Below, piece by piece: positions 4,370-16,090 of a stretch of DNA of 20,247 bases. Within the stretch, counting starts at the first letter, position 1. Every line of letters begins with the position of its first letter. The DNA comes from a virus, in IMG/VR virus record IMGVR_UViG_3300037133_000036, positions 1 to 20,247 of that record; one strand, 5' to 3'. The translations under genes were made by a program, and so were the position numbers. The notes beneath the pieces were generated by a model. The model was given only the letters and a program-made list of their open reading frames with translations, was not told the origin of the DNA and searched no databases.

Positions 4370-4419
4370 GGATCACTCCAAGGTGTATGGGCGGTGTTTA
4401 AAGGGTCACGGTCCCTATA

Positions 4420-4428
4420 TATATTATA
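4420..4428 (-). promoter_or_regulatory. Late promoter-like element TATAATATA (copy 2), upstream of scaffold and coat
   Basis: On the minus strand CTATAATATATAT is followed by AGGGACCGTGACCC. The copy upstream of the small terminase has the same CTATAATATATAT followed by GGGACTGTGACCC, so at least 25 positions are nearly shared. The element begins right after the portal stop codon and lies about 50 bases before the scaffold ATG. No -35 hexamer is seen at the usual distance. Confidence 0.65.
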
Positions 4429-6588: not shown

Positions 6589-6597
6589 TATATTATA
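6589..6597 (-). promoter_or_regulatory. Late promoter-like element TATAATATA (copy 3), upstream of portal
   Basis: The minus strand reads CTACC TATAATATA ATAGAGGTAG, with ATG 16 bases after the word. CTACCT and AGGTAG form a perfect inverted repeat around it. The layout copies that of the element at 826: word, then AGAGGTA, then start codon. A TTGACA nearby is on the other strand and belongs to the rightward promoter. Confidence 0.62.
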
Positions 6598-6612: not shown

Positions 6613-6641
6613 TTGACACGGTATGCGGACTGACCGATGAT
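6613..6641 (+). promoter_or_regulatory. Sigma70-type promoter for the rightward moron
   Basis: A perfect TTGACA (6613 to 6618), a 17-base spacer and GATGAT (6636 to 6641, four of six matches to TATAAT) point rightward. Transcription would start near 6648, a few bases before the first stem of the structured leader. Unlike the late elements it has a full -35, so the host polymerase could use it without phage help. Confidence 0.55.
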
Positions 6642-6653
6642 TGCCTCGTTGGA

Positions 6654-6748
6654 GTTGAGCCCAACCTTATCCCTCACATCTCGCCATCCTGCCTATCCGT
6701 CCAGTTTGCCCATTCATTGGGGCTCAACCAAACAGGAGATAGGCAGGA
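6654..6748 (+). ncRNA. Pseudoknotted 5' leader RNA, copy 1 (candidate cis-regulatory element)
   Basis: Two perfect inverted repeats cross each other. Stem A is GTTGAGCCC (6654-6662) with GGGCTCAAC (6720-6728). Stem B is TCCTGCCTATC (6687-6697) with GATAGGCAGGA (6738-6748). The order A, B, A', B' is that of an H-type pseudoknot or of two mutually exclusive folds. A small hairpin CCCA/TGGG (6709-6712, 6718-6721) abuts A'. The element lies just after the predicted transcription start and ends 15 bases before the GTG of the next gene, beside its ribosome site. A second copy with different stem sequences but the same plan is at 14453-14550 on the other strand. Function and ligand unknown. Confidence 0.75.
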
Positions 6749-6763
6749 CCTTTGGAGTCCACC

Positions 6764-7102
6764 GTGGACATCGATACCCTCACCATCAAGGAAGCGCGTC
6801 AGATCGCCAATCTATTCGCTATTGAAAAGACAGTGGCAGCGCTCCACGTCCCGTTCGAGGTCGGCAAGGCTTACCTCATCCGCACCGTGACCATGGCGTG
6901 GACCGGCCGCGTGACCGCCATTTACCCCGAATTCCTCACCATGGAAGACGGCGCCTGGATCGCTGATACCGGCCGCTATCATGAGGCCATCGCGCAAGGC
7001 GTGTTCAGCGAGGTCGAGCCGGCCGGCAATGTCATCATCGGCATCGGGTCCATCGTGGACGCCATCGAATGGAAGCACGATCTCCCGATGAAGGTTAAGT
7101 GA
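6764..7102 (+). CDS. Moron protein of unknown function (KEAR...AWIADTGR family)
   Basis: This gene lies on the strand opposite to the late genes that flank it. I choose GTG 6764 because GGAG lies six bases upstream; an in-frame TTG at 6752 has no proper ribosome site. The 112-residue protein begins MDIDTLTIKEARQIANLF and has a central YLIRTVTMAWTGRVTAIYP segment, then AWIADTGRYHEAIAQG, VEPAGNVIIGIGSIVDA and a terminal WKHDLPMK. I recall this pattern from small proteins in other phages and prophages, often followed by a gene made of dipeptide-like repeats, as here. It has no signal peptide or membrane segment. Its stop overlaps the next ATG by one base. Function unknown. Confidence 0.72.
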   Translation: MDIDTLTIKEARQIANLFAIEKTVAALHVPFEVGKAYLIRTVTMAWTGRVTAIYPEFLTMEDGAWIADTGRYHEAIAQGVFSEVEPAGNVIIGIGSIVDAIEWKHDLPMKVK

Positions 7103-7302
7103 TGAACGCCGCCATTGGAAGAACCGGGTATGTAATGTCGCGGTCGCGGTCGTGGTCGGGGTCGGGGTCGGGGTCGTGGTCGCGGTCGCGGTCGCGGTCG
7201 CGGTCGTGGTCGTGGTCGTGGTCGTGGTCGCGGTCGCGGTCGGGGTCGCGGTCGTGGTCGGGGTCGTGGTCGGGGTCGGGGTCGCGGTCGCGGTCGCTCT
7301 AA
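7102..7302 (+). CDS. Ultra-low-complexity (RS/WS/GS)n protein
   Basis: ATG 7102 shares a base with the stop of the upstream gene (TGATG), which argues that it is translated. After a short unique start (MNAAIGRTGYVMS) nearly every second residue is serine, alternating with R, W or G, up to a final L. There is no known fold for such a sequence and it is probably disordered. The 66-residue product could be a peptide with its own role, or the repeats may matter as DNA or RNA. The ORF stops 21 bases before the terminator that ends this unit. Confidence 0.5.
   Translation: MNAAIGRTGYVMSRSRSWSGSGSGSWSRSRSRSRSWSWSWSWSRSRSGSRSWSGSWSGSGSRSRSL
7138..7296 (+). repeat. Hexanucleotide tandem array (HGG TCG, H or G in first place)
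   Basis: About 26 units of six bases read tcg followed by cgg, tgg or ggg. Only the first base of the second codon varies. The array is in frame with the 7102 ORF and keeps all three plus frames and one minus frame open. Such an array is prone to slippage, in units that preserve the frame. Confidence 0.95.
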
Positions 7303-8993: not shown

Positions 8994-9033
8994 CGCTCGC
9001 TCCTCAGTGTTTTTAGTGGGTCACAGTCCCATA

Positions 9034-9042
9034 TATATTATA
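9034..9042 (-). promoter_or_regulatory. Late promoter-like element TATAATATA (copy 4), upstream of the terminase genes
   Basis: The word overlaps the TAA stop of the upstream gene (CTA TAA TATA). It is followed by TATGGGACTGTGACCC, nearly the same as the sequence after copy 2. About 40 bases separate it from the TTG start of the small terminase. It would start the late operon. Confidence 0.65.
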
Positions 9043-11768: not shown

Positions 11769-12031
11769 TTCGTAGGTCCTTCCACTGTCTGGATGTTGAT
11801 GGTCACCTTGACAACCCTGGCCTTGTTCTTCGGGATGCCAATGCGAATGCAGGCAACCCTAGCTTTGGCCCTGGTTTCAAACACTGCTGTCCGGCAGGCC
11901 CCCAGATAATTAGGCACTTTTGCATCCCCAGCTTCCCATGCCCAAAACGAGATGCCACATAAGAACGGCTTTTCTCCTGGCCATTGGCATTGGACTGCCC
12001 AACCTTTGTATGTTTTTTGCACAGGGCTCAT
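11765..12031 (-). CDS. Small phage protein of unknown function
   Basis: This 88-residue protein starts MSPVQKTYKGWAVQCQWPG, contains FETRAKARVACIRIGIPKN and ends in a beta strand (RVVKVTINIQTVEG). The middle pattern T-R-A-K-A-R-x-x-A and the strand ARVVKVTI are familiar from small proteins in replication operons of phages. I know no function. The start overlaps the helicase stop as ATGA. Confidence 0.65.
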   Translation of the reverse strand: MSPVQKTYKGWAVQCQWPGEKPFLCGISFWAWEAGDAKVPNYLGACRTAVFETRAKARVACIRIGIPKNKARVVKVTINIQTVEGPTK

Positions 12032-13383
12032 GCGAAATCCTCCGTGAGGTAGGAAAGTGGCGCGGGGTTGGCGAACCCGGAATCTTCCGAGGTCTGCCGT
12101 TCGAGTTCGATGTAGCGGGTGATTTCAGGTTTGAAGCTGAGGGGCAGCGTCATGCAGGGCCCGTTTCGGTGCTTGGCGATGATGAGTTCCGTGCTGGTCT
12201 GGGCCATGGCCCGGTGAATGAAGATCACCATGTCTGCGTCCTGCTCGATGCAGCCCGAATCCCGAAGGTCTGAAAGCTGAGGCTTGCCGGCCTGGCGCTT
12301 CTCCACCTCGCGGTTGAGCTGGGATAGCAGAACCACAGGAACATGCCGGTCCTTCGCCAGCAGTTTCAGCGCCCGGGTAATCTCCCCGATGCGCACCGTC
12401 TCGCTCTGGTTCTTCGCTCCCGGGGCGGACGTGAGCAACTGGAGGTAATCGATCACCAGGAGATCCAGCTTCCCGTGCCGGCCGATGATCCGGTCAGCCT
12501 GGGCGCAGATTTCAGGGACGGTGATTTTGGCCCGATCCGAGACATGGAGCGGAAGCTCGTCAACCTCCATTTTCCCCTGGGCGAACAGGCTGAAGGATTC
12601 CTGGTCGTGTTCCTCGATCATCTTCCGGGTGTCCACGCCGCTCTTGTCGGAAACCAGACGGTTCCAGAGTTCTTCCTTAGGCATTTCCAGGCTAAAGAAC
12701 GCGGCCCGCTTCCCGTTCATCCCGGCCCGTAGTAGCCAATTCATGGCCAGGGCCGATTTCCCGATGCCTGGGCGGGCCGCTAGGACGATCAATTGACCCG
12801 GCTGGAGCCCATGGGTCAAACCGTTGAATCGGGGCCACCCGTGAAGCCTGGTGCCCATTACGGAGCGTCCCTCGACTTTGTCCAGCATTTCGGCCAGGGC
12901 ATCGTCGCTGAAATTGGCAACAGCCTCGATGTTCCCCTTGTCGCTGCTCTGGGCCATGGCGGAAAGGCTGGCGGACGCCTCGGCGACCACCTCAAGCGGG
13001 TCTGTATCGGCCGCCGTCTTGAGGATCCGATACCCGATGGCCTGGAGTTCCCGCTGTTTCCGGGCCGTCTGGAGGTAGCGGATCAACACTTCCGGCCGGC
13101 CTACTTCCTCGGCCTCCAGGATGGAATGGAGCCCGGTAATGTCCCCCACGATGTTGAGCGTCCCTTGAATGGCGAGCCGGTCCCGAAGGGTCAGGGAGTT
13201 AATTTCCTCGCCTTCGGTCACCAGGGAGCGCAGCGCCACGAAAACGGCCCGGTGGGATGGGACCAGGAAATCATGGTCCTGGAGGGTGGGGACCAGAACA
13301 GCGGCCGCATGTTCGGCACCGGGGGCGCAAAGGGTGGCGATGGTGGAACGCTCGGCTTCAGGGTTCTCCGGGACGGGGATCAC
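12028..13383 (-). CDS. dnaB: Replicative DNA helicase, DnaB family
   Basis: This 451-residue protein has the two DnaB domains. The N-terminal helical domain covers roughly residues 1-100 (NPEAERSTIATLC start, then DHDFLVPSHRAVFVALRSL). The RecA-like motor has Walker A ARPGIGKS (203-210), the H1a-type SLEMPKEELW (231-240), Walker B LVIDYLQL (309-316), LSQLNREVEKR (353-363) and an arginine-finger segment KHRNG (404-408). It is a hexameric helicase that moves 5' to 3' at the fork. Encoding its own DnaB and an initiator lets the phage form its own replisome core. It starts with GTG, overlapping the initiator stop as GTGA. Confidence 0.93.
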   Translation of the reverse strand: MIPVPENPEAERSTIATLCAPGAEHAAAVLVPTLQDHDFLVPSHRAVFVALRSLVTEGEEINSLTLRDRLAIQGTLNIVGDITGLHSILEAEEVGRPEVLIRYLQTARKQRELQAIGYRILKTAADTDPLEVVAEASASLSAMAQSSDKGNIEAVANFSDDALAEMLDKVEGRSVMGTRLHGWPRFNGLTHGLQPGQLIVLAARPGIGKSALAMNWLLRAGMNGKRAAFFSLEMPKEELWNRLVSDKSGVDTRKMIEEHDQESFSLFAQGKMEVDELPLHVSDRAKITVPEICAQADRIIGRHGKLDLLVIDYLQLLTSAPGAKNQSETVRIGEITRALKLLAKDRHVPVVLLSQLNREVEKRQAGKPQLSDLRDSGCIEQDADMVIFIHRAMAQTSTELIIAKHRNGPCMTLPLSFKPEITRYIELERQTSEDSGFANPAPLSYLTEDFA

Positions 13384-14225
13384 ATGGCCTCCAGTAAGAT
13401 CGGTTGCTGCTGTTTGGCCTTTTCATCGGCATGAGCAATAGCTTCCCTAGCCAAGGGGAGAAGTTGCCGGTATGGCTTCTTCTCGGGCCCGTAGAACGTG
13501 GAAACGTGCATGATCGCTTGGTCCCGGTATTCCCAGGCGTCCATGATCCGCTGCTTTAAGTCTGGGTAGAGTTCAGCCTTGGCATAGAGCATCCCGCAGC
13601 CCTTCAACTCACGGGCGGTAGCTTCCCCGGAATCAATGATCTTTTGGAAGGCCCTGGCAGCAGCAGCGAACGGTCCCTTGTGGGCCTTCCCACCATTGGG
13701 GTCCTGGGTTGGCCAAGCTTGGTAAACAGGCCGCAGGGATTCTTCTGCTTCTGGGGAGCAATCCAATTCCACCTTCCCTGGCTTGCCCTTCTTCCCGGAA
13801 GTAGCGGTAGCTACTTCTCGGTCCTTTGGTCCTTGGTCCCTTCCTTGATCCCCCGACGATAGTTCGCGAGTATTCGCGAGGATTCGCGAGGATTCGTCGA
13901 ATGGTGGTATTTTTGACTGGCTTGGTTTGTCTATCTTCTGGTGACTCAACCAGTTACAGATTTGGATATAGGAATCCGAACCATGGCTATAGCGGGAAAT
14001 ACAACCCTCAACCTGGAGTTCCTCAAGCCACCCATCAACCATAGTTTTAGCGTCGTCGTCATAGGGGAAAAGAAGGCTCGCGAGCATTCGCGAATTCCCG
14101 CGAAGCCTCCCCGAATCGTCAGCGAGGGTCCAAAGCATGATGAATGTGAGACGAGCATCCCTGGAAACTCGGCCCATAGATTCAGACTGGGGAAACTCTG
14201 GCTTGATGGTTCGGATTCTAGCCAT
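13380..14225 (-). CDS. Phage replication initiator (winged-helix O-like protein)
   Basis: This 281-residue protein begins MARIRTIKPEFPQSESM and has TFIMLWTLADDSGRLRG and LASLLFPYDDDA, the N-terminal DNA-binding domain typical of phage replication proteins that precede a helicase gene. The middle (about 115 to 160) is a low-complexity linker. The C-terminal part (LRPVYQAWPTQDPNGGKAHKG, then helices) resembles the part that contacts helicase or loader. The start overlaps the upstream stop as TAATG. As in lambda O, clustered 10-base repeats lie within the gene, so it may contain the origin it binds. The role is inferred from the domain and the adjacent dnaB. Confidence 0.78.
   Translation of the reverse strand: MARIRTIKPEFPQSESMGRVSRDARLTFIMLWTLADDSGRLRGNSRMLASLLFPYDDDAKTMVDGWLEELQVEGCISRYSHGSDSYIQICNWLSHQKIDKPSQSKIPPFDESSRILANTRELSSGDQGRDQGPKDREVATATSGKKGKPGKVELDCSPEAEESLRPVYQAWPTQDPNGGKAHKGPFAAAARAFQKIIDSGEATARELKGCGMLYAKAELYPDLKQRIMDAWEYRDQAIMHVSTFYGPEKKPYRQLLPLAREAIAHADEKAKQQQPILLEAM
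13861..13900. repeat. Iteron-like 10-bp repeats, cluster 1 (candidate origin)
   Basis: TCGCGA occurs at exact 10-base intervals (starting 13864, 13874, 13884), with a degenerate fourth unit TCGTCGA at 13894. The unit is about TTCGCGAGGA. Ten bases is one helical turn but not a multiple of three, so the repeat is not caused by a repeated peptide. It lies in the linker-coding part of the initiator gene, as the lambda origin does in O. Confidence 0.6.
14078..14104. repeat. Iteron-like 10-bp repeats, cluster 2
   Basis: TCGCGA at 14078 and 14088 and CCGCGAA at 14098 again fall exactly 10 bases apart. The stretch encodes the RGNSRMLAS segment, which is well kept in the protein family, so part of this cluster may be forced by the protein. 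It lies about 214 bases from cluster 1. Confidence 0.4.
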
Positions 14226-14434
14226 TACCCCACCTGGGGGTAATTCTTGGCGATCTGGTCAAGTCGATAGGCAACCATTCGGAGCACGGGAGCCAGATCG
14301 GGCGTCAGCAGTAGCGGAGTGTCCCCATCTGTAATGAGTTCAACCTTGTCGCCGTAAACTTCGATCCACCCTACATCATAGCCAAGTCCATATCTTTCCA
14401 TGTTGGGGACAGTATTTTCATTCCTCTTAGCCAT
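14225..14434 (-). CDS. Small protein downstream of the structured leader, unknown function
   Basis: This 69-residue protein starts MAKRNENTVPNMERYGLGYD, continues VGWIEVYGDKVELITDGDTP and ends with a helix (LAPVLRMVAYRLDQIAKN). TAGGA lies seven bases upstream of the ATG and the leader pseudoknot ends 18 bases before it. It is the first gene after promoter-like copy 5 and is coupled to the initiator by TAATG. Its control may therefore set the level of the replication genes. No function recognised. Confidence 0.65.
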   Translation of the reverse strand: MAKRNENTVPNMERYGLGYDVGWIEVYGDKVELITDGDTPLLLTPDLAPVLRMVAYRLDQIAKNYPQVG

Positions 14435-14452
14435 AGCATTGTCCTAGCGGTT

Positions 14453-14550
14453 TCCCACCCTTCCTCTGATCGGTTGCACTTGCCCGCACTGGGCAACGAC
14501 GAGAGATAGGGTGGGATGGGGGAGAAATGATGGATAATCCAGGTGCAACC
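14453..14550 (-). ncRNA. Pseudoknotted 5' leader RNA, copy 2 (candidate cis-regulatory element)
   Basis: In transcript order (minus strand): stem A GGTTGCAC (14550-14543), stem B TCCCACCCT (14516-14508), hairpin C TTGCCC/GGGCAA with a five-base loop (14496-14480), A' GTGCAACC (14479-14472), B' AGGGTGGGA (14461-14453). All are perfect, and A and B cross. B can extend by four pairs past one mismatch. Between A and B lies TTATCC, TCA, CATCC, also found in copy 1; after A' lies CAACC then CAG, also shared. Spacings A-B, B-A', A'-B' and B'-start are 26, 28, 10 and 18 here against 24, 22, 9 and 15 in copy 1. Only the stem bases differ, in paired fashion. Confidence 0.78.
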
Positions 14551-14558
14551 CTGATACT

Positions 14559-14567
14559 TATATTATA
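14559..14567 (-). promoter_or_regulatory. Promoter-like element TATAATATA (copy 5), upstream of the replication genes
   Basis: The minus strand reads GATATAATATAAGTATCAGGG, placed right after the stop of the 64-residue gene. Transcription would start near 14555, about five bases before stem A of the leader. It shares the nine-base word with the four late copies but not the CTATAA start or the GTGACCC tail. Confidence 0.5.
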
Positions 14568-14570
14568 TCC

Positions 14571-14765
14571 CTATGCCGGTTTGGCGTCAAGCACTTGCTG
14601 GGGTTCGCCGGCCAACCTGGACGCGCTTTGCAGCTTTGACTTTGCCGCCAAAAGGTCTGTGACGGCGCGGTTTACCAGTGCCCTGGCGGTTCCGTCTGGG
14701 ACTTCGAGCGCGGACGCCTGAACGGTGATCTGGGCCACGATGAGGGACGCTTCCCGACAGTTCAT
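14571..14765 (-). CDS. Small helical protein of unknown function
   Basis: This 64-residue protein (MNCREASLIVAQITVQASAL onward) is predicted to be nearly all helix, with LVNRAVTDLLAAKSKLQSA, and ends in AKPA. Its start overlaps the upstream stop as ATGA, and its TAG stop is followed at once by promoter-like copy 5. No function recognised. Confidence 0.6.
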   Translation of the reverse strand: MNCREASLIVAQITVQASALEVPDGTARALVNRAVTDLLAAKSKLQSASRLAGEPQQVLDAKPA

Positions 14766-15631
14766 GATTTTGCCTTAAACCGGCCCTTGGCGTCTCGAAT
14801 TGGAACATCCTTGGTGCCGAATTTCGCCTTGAGCCAGTCCGCGCACAGCGCCAGGATAAGCCCATATTCAGAGATTTGATCCGCAGTATATCTCTGGACT
14901 TTCCCTATAGACTGGAAGTGCATTTGCCATTGGGAGACCGAGTGGCACTGGCATCCGATCTGGATATGCGTGTGGCTACACGTGGTAACGCCGTGGCGGG
15001 TTCCCTGGATGTAGAGAGGGGAGAACTCCCAGGCATCGCCGGAGACCCTGGCATTGCCGGAGACCTGGGCATCGCCGGAGACCCGGGCATTGCCGAAGAC
15101 CCGGGTATCGCCGAAGACCCGGGCATCACCGTAGACCCTGGCATTGCCGAAGACCCGGGCATTGCCGTAGACCTGGGCATTGCCGGAGACCTGGGCATCG
15201 CCGGAGACCTGGGCATTGCCGGAGACCTGGGCATCGCCGGAGACCCGGGCATTGCCGAAGACCCGGGTATCGCCGAAGACCCGGGCATCACCGTAGACCC
15301 TGGCATTGCCGAAGACCCGGGCATTGCCGTAGACCTGGGCATTGCCGGAGACCTGGGCATCGCCGAAGACCTGGGCATTGCCGAAGACCCGGGCATTGCC
15401 GTAGACCCGGGCATTGCCGGAGACCTGGGCATCGCCGAAGACCTGGGCATTGCCGAAGACCCGGGCATTGCCGTAGACCCGGGCATTGCCGGAGACCATC
15501 CCCTCGACAGTCACGGACGCATCCACATGTGCCGTATCCTGGACCCATCCTCCCCCTTTGATGTGCTGGTGCCACTCCCCACGGACCAAGGGGCCGAGTT
15601 TGGCCTGCAATTCTTTGAATGTGATGCTCAT
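14762..15631 (-). CDS. Hexapeptide-repeat left-handed beta-helix protein (YdcK-like)
   Basis: This 289-residue protein has an N-terminal part (MSITFKELQAKLGPL, GGGWVQDTAHVDASVTVEG), 26 near-perfect hexapeptides of the form [SYF]-G-[ND]-[AT]-[RQ]-V, and a C-terminal domain (CSHTHIQIGCQCHSVSQW, then DQISEYGLILALCADWLKAK). The repeats fit the rule for left-handed parallel beta-helices (aliphatic, two spacers, small residue). E. coli YdcK has a similar plan with GNARVYGNA-type repeats and a C-terminal cap. At three hexapeptides per turn this gives eight to nine turns. It shows no acyltransferase active site that I can recognise. In phages such proteins are known but their role is not. Overlaps RusA by ATGA. 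Confidence 0.82.
   Translation of the reverse strand: MSITFKELQAKLGPLVRGEWHQHIKGGGWVQDTAHVDASVTVEGMVSGNARVYGNARVFGNAQVFGDAQVSGNARVYGNARVFGNAQVFGDAQVSGNAQVYGNARVFGNARVYGDARVFGDTRVFGNARVSGDAQVSGNAQVSGDAQVSGNAQVYGNARVFGNARVYGDARVFGDTRVFGNARVSGDAQVSGNARVSGDAWEFSPLYIQGTRHGVTTCSHTHIQIGCQCHSVSQWQMHFQSIGKVQRYTADQISEYGLILALCADWLKAKFGTKDVPIRDAKGRFKAKS
15030..15497 (-). repeat. 18-bp tandem repeats with 162-bp and 72-bp higher-order duplications
   Basis: Twenty-six 18-base units encode the hexapeptides. A nine-unit block (162 bp) is repeated almost exactly: the sequence starting at 15079 returns at 15241. At the coding 5' side a four-unit block (72 bp) is also doubled. The near identity at silent positions means recent expansion by unequal recombination or slippage. 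Confidence 0.93.
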
Positions 15632-15987
15632 ATATCCTCCAGGATAATGGTTGTTGACGGGTAAATTTTGCGGGATACAACCTGCGGCAAGGCGATTAAT
15701 TCCAGGTGGGTGTCATCGTCGTCAACGATAAGGCGCTCGGCTTTAATGGCGTCGATCAGGGCCTTAAATCCGCCGATGAGATTGTCTCGGTCCAGCCGGC
15801 CGCGTCCAGTGCGCTCGATGGATACGCGGCGCTTCCCCGTTGCCACGGGGATCTGGGCCTGACGGTTCAGGGCCGAGCGCAACGACCAAGCGATCTTCTC
15901 TTTCTCTCGCCGAACCCATGACCAATGCTGCCCCTGCGTCTGATTCAGGCTCATGGTGGCGAAGGGCAGAATGATGGTCCAGGTCAT
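15628..15987 (-). CDS. rusA: RusA-like Holliday junction resolvase
   Basis: I choose ATG 15987, preceded by AAAGGA; the frame is open further upstream to 16086 but that part overlaps another short ORF and is not family-like. The 119-residue protein has an N-terminal strand (MTWTIILPFATMSLNQTQGQ), a basic helix, and the hallmark LDRDNLIGGFKALIDAIKAE with LIVDDDDTHLEL. The two acidic clusters match the metal-binding aspartates of RusA, which resolves branched DNA before packaging. The length matches RusA (about 120). The stop overlaps the hexapeptide protein start as ATGA. Confidence 0.82.
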   Translation of the reverse strand: MTWTIILPFATMSLNQTQGQHWSWVRREKEKIAWSLRSALNRQAQIPVATGKRRVSIERTGRGRLDRDNLIGGFKALIDAIKAERLIVDDDDTHLELIALPQVVSRKIYPSTTIILEDI

Positions 15988-15988
15988 G

Positions 15989-16090
15989 CTAGGCCGTCCT
16001 TTCTTCGCATGAGGGTGCGCCATGCGAGGCAAGCCACTGCTGGAACCCGGCTCCGGCGAAGAGATGCAGTTCACGAAGTGGAACATTCAC
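15989..16090 (-). pseudogene. Internally deleted C5-cytosine methyltransferase remnant (33 codons)
   Basis: A short frame runs from GTG 16090, overlapping the upstream stop as GTGA, to TAG 15989, one base before RusA. It encodes VPLRELHLFAGAGF, which is the motif I start of a phage-type Dcm methyltransferase (RELHLFAGAGGG), followed at once by QQWLASHGAPSC. The latter resembles the extreme C-terminus of the same type (F-x-x-W-x-x-x-H-G). The catalytic PCQ and all other motifs are missing. This reads as an in-frame deletion that joined the first 15 residues to the last 18. Alternatively it is a short peptide of chance similarity. Confidence 0.5.

Follow-up and report, generated by a model that had tools for sequence, protein, structure and literature searches.

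The gap in front of the replication genes of this phage (14435–14570) had been read from its letters as a leader RNA that controls them, which raises the question of whether such an RNA is present and whether control of replication is its role. The window, meaning the whole stretch of DNA analysed, is 20,247 nt long and comes from an IMG/VR virus record (IMGVR_UViG_3300037133_000036); the leader in the gap lies on its minus strand. The surrounding features are:

14562..14590, minus strand: sigma70-type promoter TTGACG-17-TATAAT (consensus scan)
14442..14446, minus strand: ribosome binding site TAGGA of the 69-aa gene (sequence)
14225..14434, minus strand: first gene, 69 aa (weakly similar small proteins in contigs L008 and L103)
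13380..14225, minus strand: replication initiation protein, 281 aa, TAATG coupling (PHROGs)
12028..13383, minus strand: DnaB-like replicative helicase, GTGA coupling (PHROGs)

The promoter-like sequence placed in this gap by the original prediction was found as a near-consensus sigma70 promoter, with the −35 box TTGACG at 14590–14585, a 17-nt spacer and the −10 box TATAAT at 14567–14562. It matched 11 of 12 consensus bases and was the single promoter site within 3 kb in the consensus scan. The same promoter was 92.5–100% identical in contigs L002, L003, L016 and L103/L104. The predicted transcript start is about 14556–14554, 6–8 nt past the −10 box and 4–6 nt ahead of stem A, which agrees with the five bases proposed earlier. 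The promoter is followed on the minus strand by CAGGGTTGCACC. The leader contains no T run with an intrinsic terminator, and attenuation is therefore unlikely.

The leader ends as had been described, at the ribosome site TAGGA followed by the ATG of the 69-aa gene at 14434. The TAATG coupling of this gene to the initiator and the GTGA coupling to dnaB were both present, and PHROGs assigned the 281-aa gene to the replication initiation proteins (E 1e-30) and the next to the DnaB-like helicases (E 3e-80). The small proteins of 61–71 aa in the window (14225–14434), L008 (2817–3001) and L103 (3342–3557) resembled distant relatives, with 28% identity to the 69-aa protein and a shared C-terminal part; they were located just upstream of the initiator in the window and L008, and first behind the same promoter in L103. 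In the same gene run, 14762–15631 (minus) encoded a protein with many 18-nt tandem repeats, of the YdcK-type beta solenoid (PF18836).

The structured leader is about 101 nt long (model match at 14452–14553, minus) and consists of the following parts:

14540..14553, minus strand: 5′ hairpin D, CAGG-GTTGCA-CCTG, whose loop pairs with A′
14517..14539, minus strand: pyrimidine-rich linker L1, 23 nt
14508..14516, minus strand: 5′ strand of helix B1, TCCCACCCT
14498..14506, minus strand: 5′ strand of helix B2, TCTCTCGTC
14480..14496, minus strand: hairpin C, TTGCCC-AGTGC-GGGCAA
14472..14479, minus strand: bulge A′, GTGCAACC, partner of the D loop
14463..14471, minus strand: 3′ strand of helix B2, GATCAGAGG
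14453..14461, minus strand: 3′ strand of helix B1, AGGGTGGGA, previously called B′

The three stems named in the original prediction were exact: A (GGTTGCAC/GTGCAACC) paired 8/8, B, here B1 (TCCCACCCT/AGGGTGGGA), 9/9 and C (TTGCCC/GGGCAA) 6/6. Hairpin C, described there as stacked next to A′, was directly adjacent to it, with 0 nt between them. This exact layout of 8, 9 and 6 bp with C flush to A′ had a single occurrence in the window, and 60 Markov resamples produced none. The plain three-stem pseudoknot, however, had to be redrawn, since covariation supported both D and B2: stem A (14543–14550) is the D loop plus its closing pair, B continues inward as B2 (TCTCTCGTC/GATCAGAGG) up to A′, and A′ is a bulge on the 3′ side of the long hairpin B1-B2-C. 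In the general plan, D has 4–5 bp and a loop of 6–8 nt, which pairs with the 7–8 nt bulge. In the nested ensemble A′ was almost wholly unpaired while B and C were fully formed, indicating that the contact between the D loop and A′ is available.

B1′ ends 6 nt ahead of TAGGA, so the closeness of B′ to the ribosome site, from which an effect of folding on initiation had been suggested, was real. However, the ribosome site was in none of the named helices and lay outside the conserved fold, and pairing of linker L1 with it was no better than for shuffled linkers; a role of the pyrimidine linker as an anti-Shine-Dalgarno sequence was thus not supported. A triplex of the linker with B was also dropped, as by eye it fitted L016 only.

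Covariance model R1 was built from the window leader and L016 only, with helices D, B1, B2 and C, and model R2 from five sequences. R1 retrieved the leader of L008 over its full length (E=7.2e-11) and a second copy in the window at 6649–6749 on the plus strand (E=1.7e-4; 8e-6 with filters off). Both matches were out-of-sample tests of R1. In the five-sequence alignment, which was fitted to the model and so favours pairing (the two out-of-sample E-values are independent of this fit), 94.4% of the cells were paired, compared with 39–54% in slid registers, and 20 of 29 nested pairs were changed on both sides. The values for pairing, two-sided changes and covariation score were reached in 0 of 500 shuffles. 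Between the window and L016 there were compensatory changes in A, C and B2. The pseudoknot pairs of the D loop with A′ lie outside the covariance model; in each of the four sequence types this pairing was perfect across 6–7 bp, and the changes between types were compensatory (GTTGCA/TGCAAC, GTCGCG/CGCGAC, GTGGCA/TGCCAC and, by eye, GTTGAGC/GCTCAAC). Every loop preferred its own bulge, at −10.0 to −15.4 kcal/mol vs. −1.1 to −9.0 kcal/mol with the others. The five contigs supplied four distinct types of sequence, which are enough to support the fold and too few to define a binding site. We conclude that the leader is almost certainly a real structured RNA.

The second copy and its surroundings are:

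6613..6641, plus strand: promoter of the second copy, TTGACA-17-GATGAT
6648..6748, plus strand: second RNA copy (covariance model)
6764..7102, plus strand: lone 112-aa gene behind the second copy

Sequence searches in the window gave no match to this copy, which was found by the covariance model only. It begins about 6 nt past TTGACA-17-GATGAT and comprises D (GTTGG-AGTTGAGC-CCAAC), B1 (TCCTGCCTATC/GATAGGCAGGA), B2 (TCCAGTTTG/CAAACAGGA), C (CCCA-TTCAT-TGGG) and A′ (GCTCAAC, 6722–6728), the helices being assigned partly by eye. It is probably the leader that the original prediction had counted as the first. The 112-aa gene has a GTG start after a GGAG site, and its relatives in L164 and MW202573 were without the element. 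Because the second copy heads this unrelated lone gene, the RNA is not specific to replication, and the idea of a device for replication control specifically did not stand. The interval from the 112-aa gene to the terminase gene contained a long array of GGTCGN hexamers (7137–7300).

Five uncultured phages carry the fold directly behind strong promoters. The leader was 100% identical in two further IMG/VR contigs, 3300037149_000062 (L002/L083) and 3300049729_000081 (L003/L082). In L016 (3300029955_000144) it was 78–83% identical and located directly before a different, chimeric initiator gene. L008 (3300032562_000037) had a very different leader built to the same plan, followed by a small gene and then by an initiator that begins like that of the window. 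The D hairpin, the B1-B2-C hairpin and an A′ complementary to the D loop were found at window 14452–14553 and 6649–6749, in L016 and L008, and in the copies of 3300037149_000062 and 3300049729_000081. The R2 search counted two copies in the window and in each of these last two contigs; the 3300029955 and 3300032562 records had a single copy apiece.

Rfam 15 contained no match to the window (best E 0.47, far under the gathering thresholds), and with E up to 10 it returned chance microRNA-like hairpins only. Cultured phages and plasmids gave no blastn match (E ≤ 0.01 for the phage collection). R2 found none in about 815 bacterial genomes picked from groups carrying relatives of the initiator, a weak negative because strict filters were used for most of them. 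A scan of all viral contigs for the pattern of A, C loop and A′, restricted to the AGTGC type so that other loop types would be missed, gave 31 stretches, with the full fold in the known ones only. The exact C-hairpin sequence had only chance matches beyond the known leaders, and a structure-only descriptor was unspecific, with about 80 matches over 1.14 Mb, as expected from resampled sequence. The element is thus a new, rare family of structured 5′-UTR RNA.

From the promoter through the N-terminal part of the initiator, the DNA was 100% identical in the window, L002 and L003. In these three phages the flanks were 96–99% identical in the upstream gene and 92–100% in dnaB, and the whole initiator proteins of L002 and L003 were 92 and 64% identical to that of the window. 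The second copy was identical or different by one base in L163 and L162 over D to B1′, and about five positions of their promoter spacer and start region differed from the window. In L016 and L103, this promoter and upstream gene were joined to other cassettes. This pattern of identity reads as recent exchange of the cassette.

The initiators were chimeric (window 13380–14225; L016 399–1265; L003 3001–3789): that of L016 differed in its N-terminal part and was close to that of the window in its C-terminal part, and that of L003 was identical in the N-terminal part and diverged in the rest. In L103 and L104 (3209–3345), the same promoter and upstream gene preceded another leader, with a 12–13 bp hairpin before the ribosome site. 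By eye, this leader had a TGCG hairpin with a GTAAC loop, and a GTTAC flush with the 12-bp helix. It is a possible distant analogue of the element; R2 gave no match to it, and it was not counted as a member.

All copies shared their position, with D within about 1–15 nt of the predicted −10 box and each copy just upstream of a start codon, so that effects on ribosome loading, 5′-end decay, or both would follow naturally. In three of four types, a gap of 4–7 nt separated the end of B1′ from the ribosome site. L016 had no good ribosome site, and a tight coupling to Shine-Dalgarno access is therefore not general. The set of downstream genes argues against a role in replication only or in metabolite sensing only.

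We propose that the element is a portable promoter-proximal module, a structured 5′-UTR RNA of a small phage group. During transcription D would form first and the long hairpin B1-B2-C second, and the D loop would then pair with A′ to give a compact hairpin-loop/bulge pseudoknot. The leader would act in cis on its own transcript, setting ribosome loading and/or mRNA lifetime, and a bound phage or host protein would probably mediate this, by analogy with the pseudoknot of the T4 gene 32 mRNA. We infer this step to regulation from the structure. A portable structured module acting in cis is the best explanation overall and a fairly probable one, and an effect on translation or stability is reasonably probable in its own right. 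Control of the replication genes by the leader is plausible. A specific trans-acting sensor is possible, and we hold it with some doubt. More tentatively still, the element might be a new class of sensing leader, in which a single phage or host factor binds the switch formed by the D loop and A′ and co-regulates the replication module and the second gene, the whole moving between phages in a recombining promoter-leader-initiator cassette.

By analogy, T4 gene 32 and the plasmid gene repZ may be taken as the nearest functional precedents. In T4 and RB69, the mRNA of the replication protein gene 32 carries an RNA pseudoknot on the 5′ side of its ribosome site (PMC535899). That operator is a pseudoknot of about 28 nt adjoining UUAAA repeats, and the protein encoded by gene 32 itself binds it, whereas the element here is about 100 nt long, uses hairpin-loop/bulge pairing and occurs in two copies with different genes. 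In the IncI-alpha plasmid pColIb-P9, a 5′ pseudoknot upstream of the initiator ribosome site is required for translation of repZ, and Inc is an antisense RNA (PMC9977716). The repZ leader is alike in where its pseudoknot is placed and differs in belonging to a plasmid rather than a phage. A consensus scan of the plus strand over 13000–16000 found no promoter-like site for an antisense RNA opposite the leader.

Several other readings of the element were weighed against the cis-acting module. The one closest to gene 32 is an autogenous translational operator, in which the leader is bound by the small protein of its first gene or by the initiator. This would fit the travel of leader, first gene and N-terminal part of the initiator as one cassette, and the first genes of the window, L008 and L103, which look like distant relatives (28% identity). 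However, the leader of L016 stands directly before the chimeric initiator without a small gene, and a single self-binder fails for both copies in the window unless there is cross-regulation, since the second precedes an unrelated protein; we regard this reading as rather unlikely. The two copies per genome and the two hairpins near the 5′ end recall the putL and putR RNAs of HK022, of which there are two per genome, about 70 nt long with two stem-loops and downstream of early promoters (PMC9378689). A put-like leader would bind RNA polymerase while nascent and allow read-through of terminators in the long early operon. The put RNAs, however, are conserved in sequence and have a triplex in the first stem, and no loop-bulge pseudoknot is described for them, whereas the element here is conserved in structure and its types share little sequence. 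Moreover, the second copy heads a single gene, beyond which transcription would be antisense to terminase and read-through would serve no purpose. We regard put-like antitermination as quite unlikely.

The original prediction had likened the leader to pseudoknot riboswitches, and this likeness is one of topology only. The preQ1 (preQ1-II/III) and SAM-II riboswitches are pseudoknot leaders near the ribosome site, and a compact pseudoknot lies directly 5′ of the ribosome site here, with the C loop AGTGC identical in three of the four types. A metabolite riboswitch would hold a ligand pocket in this pseudoknot that gates translation of the downstream gene. The likeness did not extend to an Rfam match or to invariant unpaired bases: the second copy has TTCAT in the C loop, the linkers vary as well (across four types only, hence weak evidence), and the single-stranded parts are without the invariant core of a pocket. 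The downstream genes (69-aa, chimeric initiator, 61-aa and 112-aa) have no common metabolic theme and the bacterial genomes searched gave no member, so a riboswitch is very unlikely. The loop pairing also resembles the pistol ribozyme, where the loop of a 5′ hairpin reaches an internal-loop strand of the next hairpin, located on that hairpin's 5′ side; the element likewise joins a 6-nt loop to a strand inside its second hairpin. In all four types, however, A′ follows hairpin C on the 3′ side, Rfam gave no match, and no conserved unpaired core fit for an active site was seen; we give self-cleavage almost no credence. Finally, in favour of an inverted-repeat DNA operator or origin element, the stems are inverted repeats in the DNA as well, and phage replication genes often adjoin origins. 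Against this, the three remaining non-Watson-Crick standard pairs were G-U on the sense strand and the model scored 120 bits on this strand vs. 16–27 bits on the opposite one, which points to an RNA rather than a DNA operator. The helix is mismatched and bulged, the changes are coordinated across D, A, B1, B2 and C, and the element is placed just 3′ of promoters on either strand. A DNA element is thus extremely improbable.

Few phage replication modules are known with structured cis-acting leaders, and a regulatory role, if proven, would place a post-transcriptional layer at the start of phage replication genes. One genome offers two natural copies whose loop-bulge pairs are largely orthogonal, and a covariance model is at hand; together with the comparative evidence for the fold, this makes a reporter test of the leader direct.

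A repeated promoter-like sequence was also observed in the window. Exact TATAATATA occurred five times, on the minus strand only (826–834, 4420–4428, 6589–6597, 9034–9042 and 14559–14567), in each case immediately ahead of a gene. When up to one mismatch was allowed, both strands together had 11 matches, vs. 0.44 expected. By eye, the sites at 826, 4420 and 9034 had no evident −35 box; such sites recall factor-dependent late promoters, e.g., that of T4 (TATAAATA). Behind two of the TATAATATA promoters (4395–4428 and 9005–9042, minus) there were near-identical small hairpins, GGGAC[C/T]GTGACCC, located at the likely 5′ end of the transcripts and ahead of structural-region genes.
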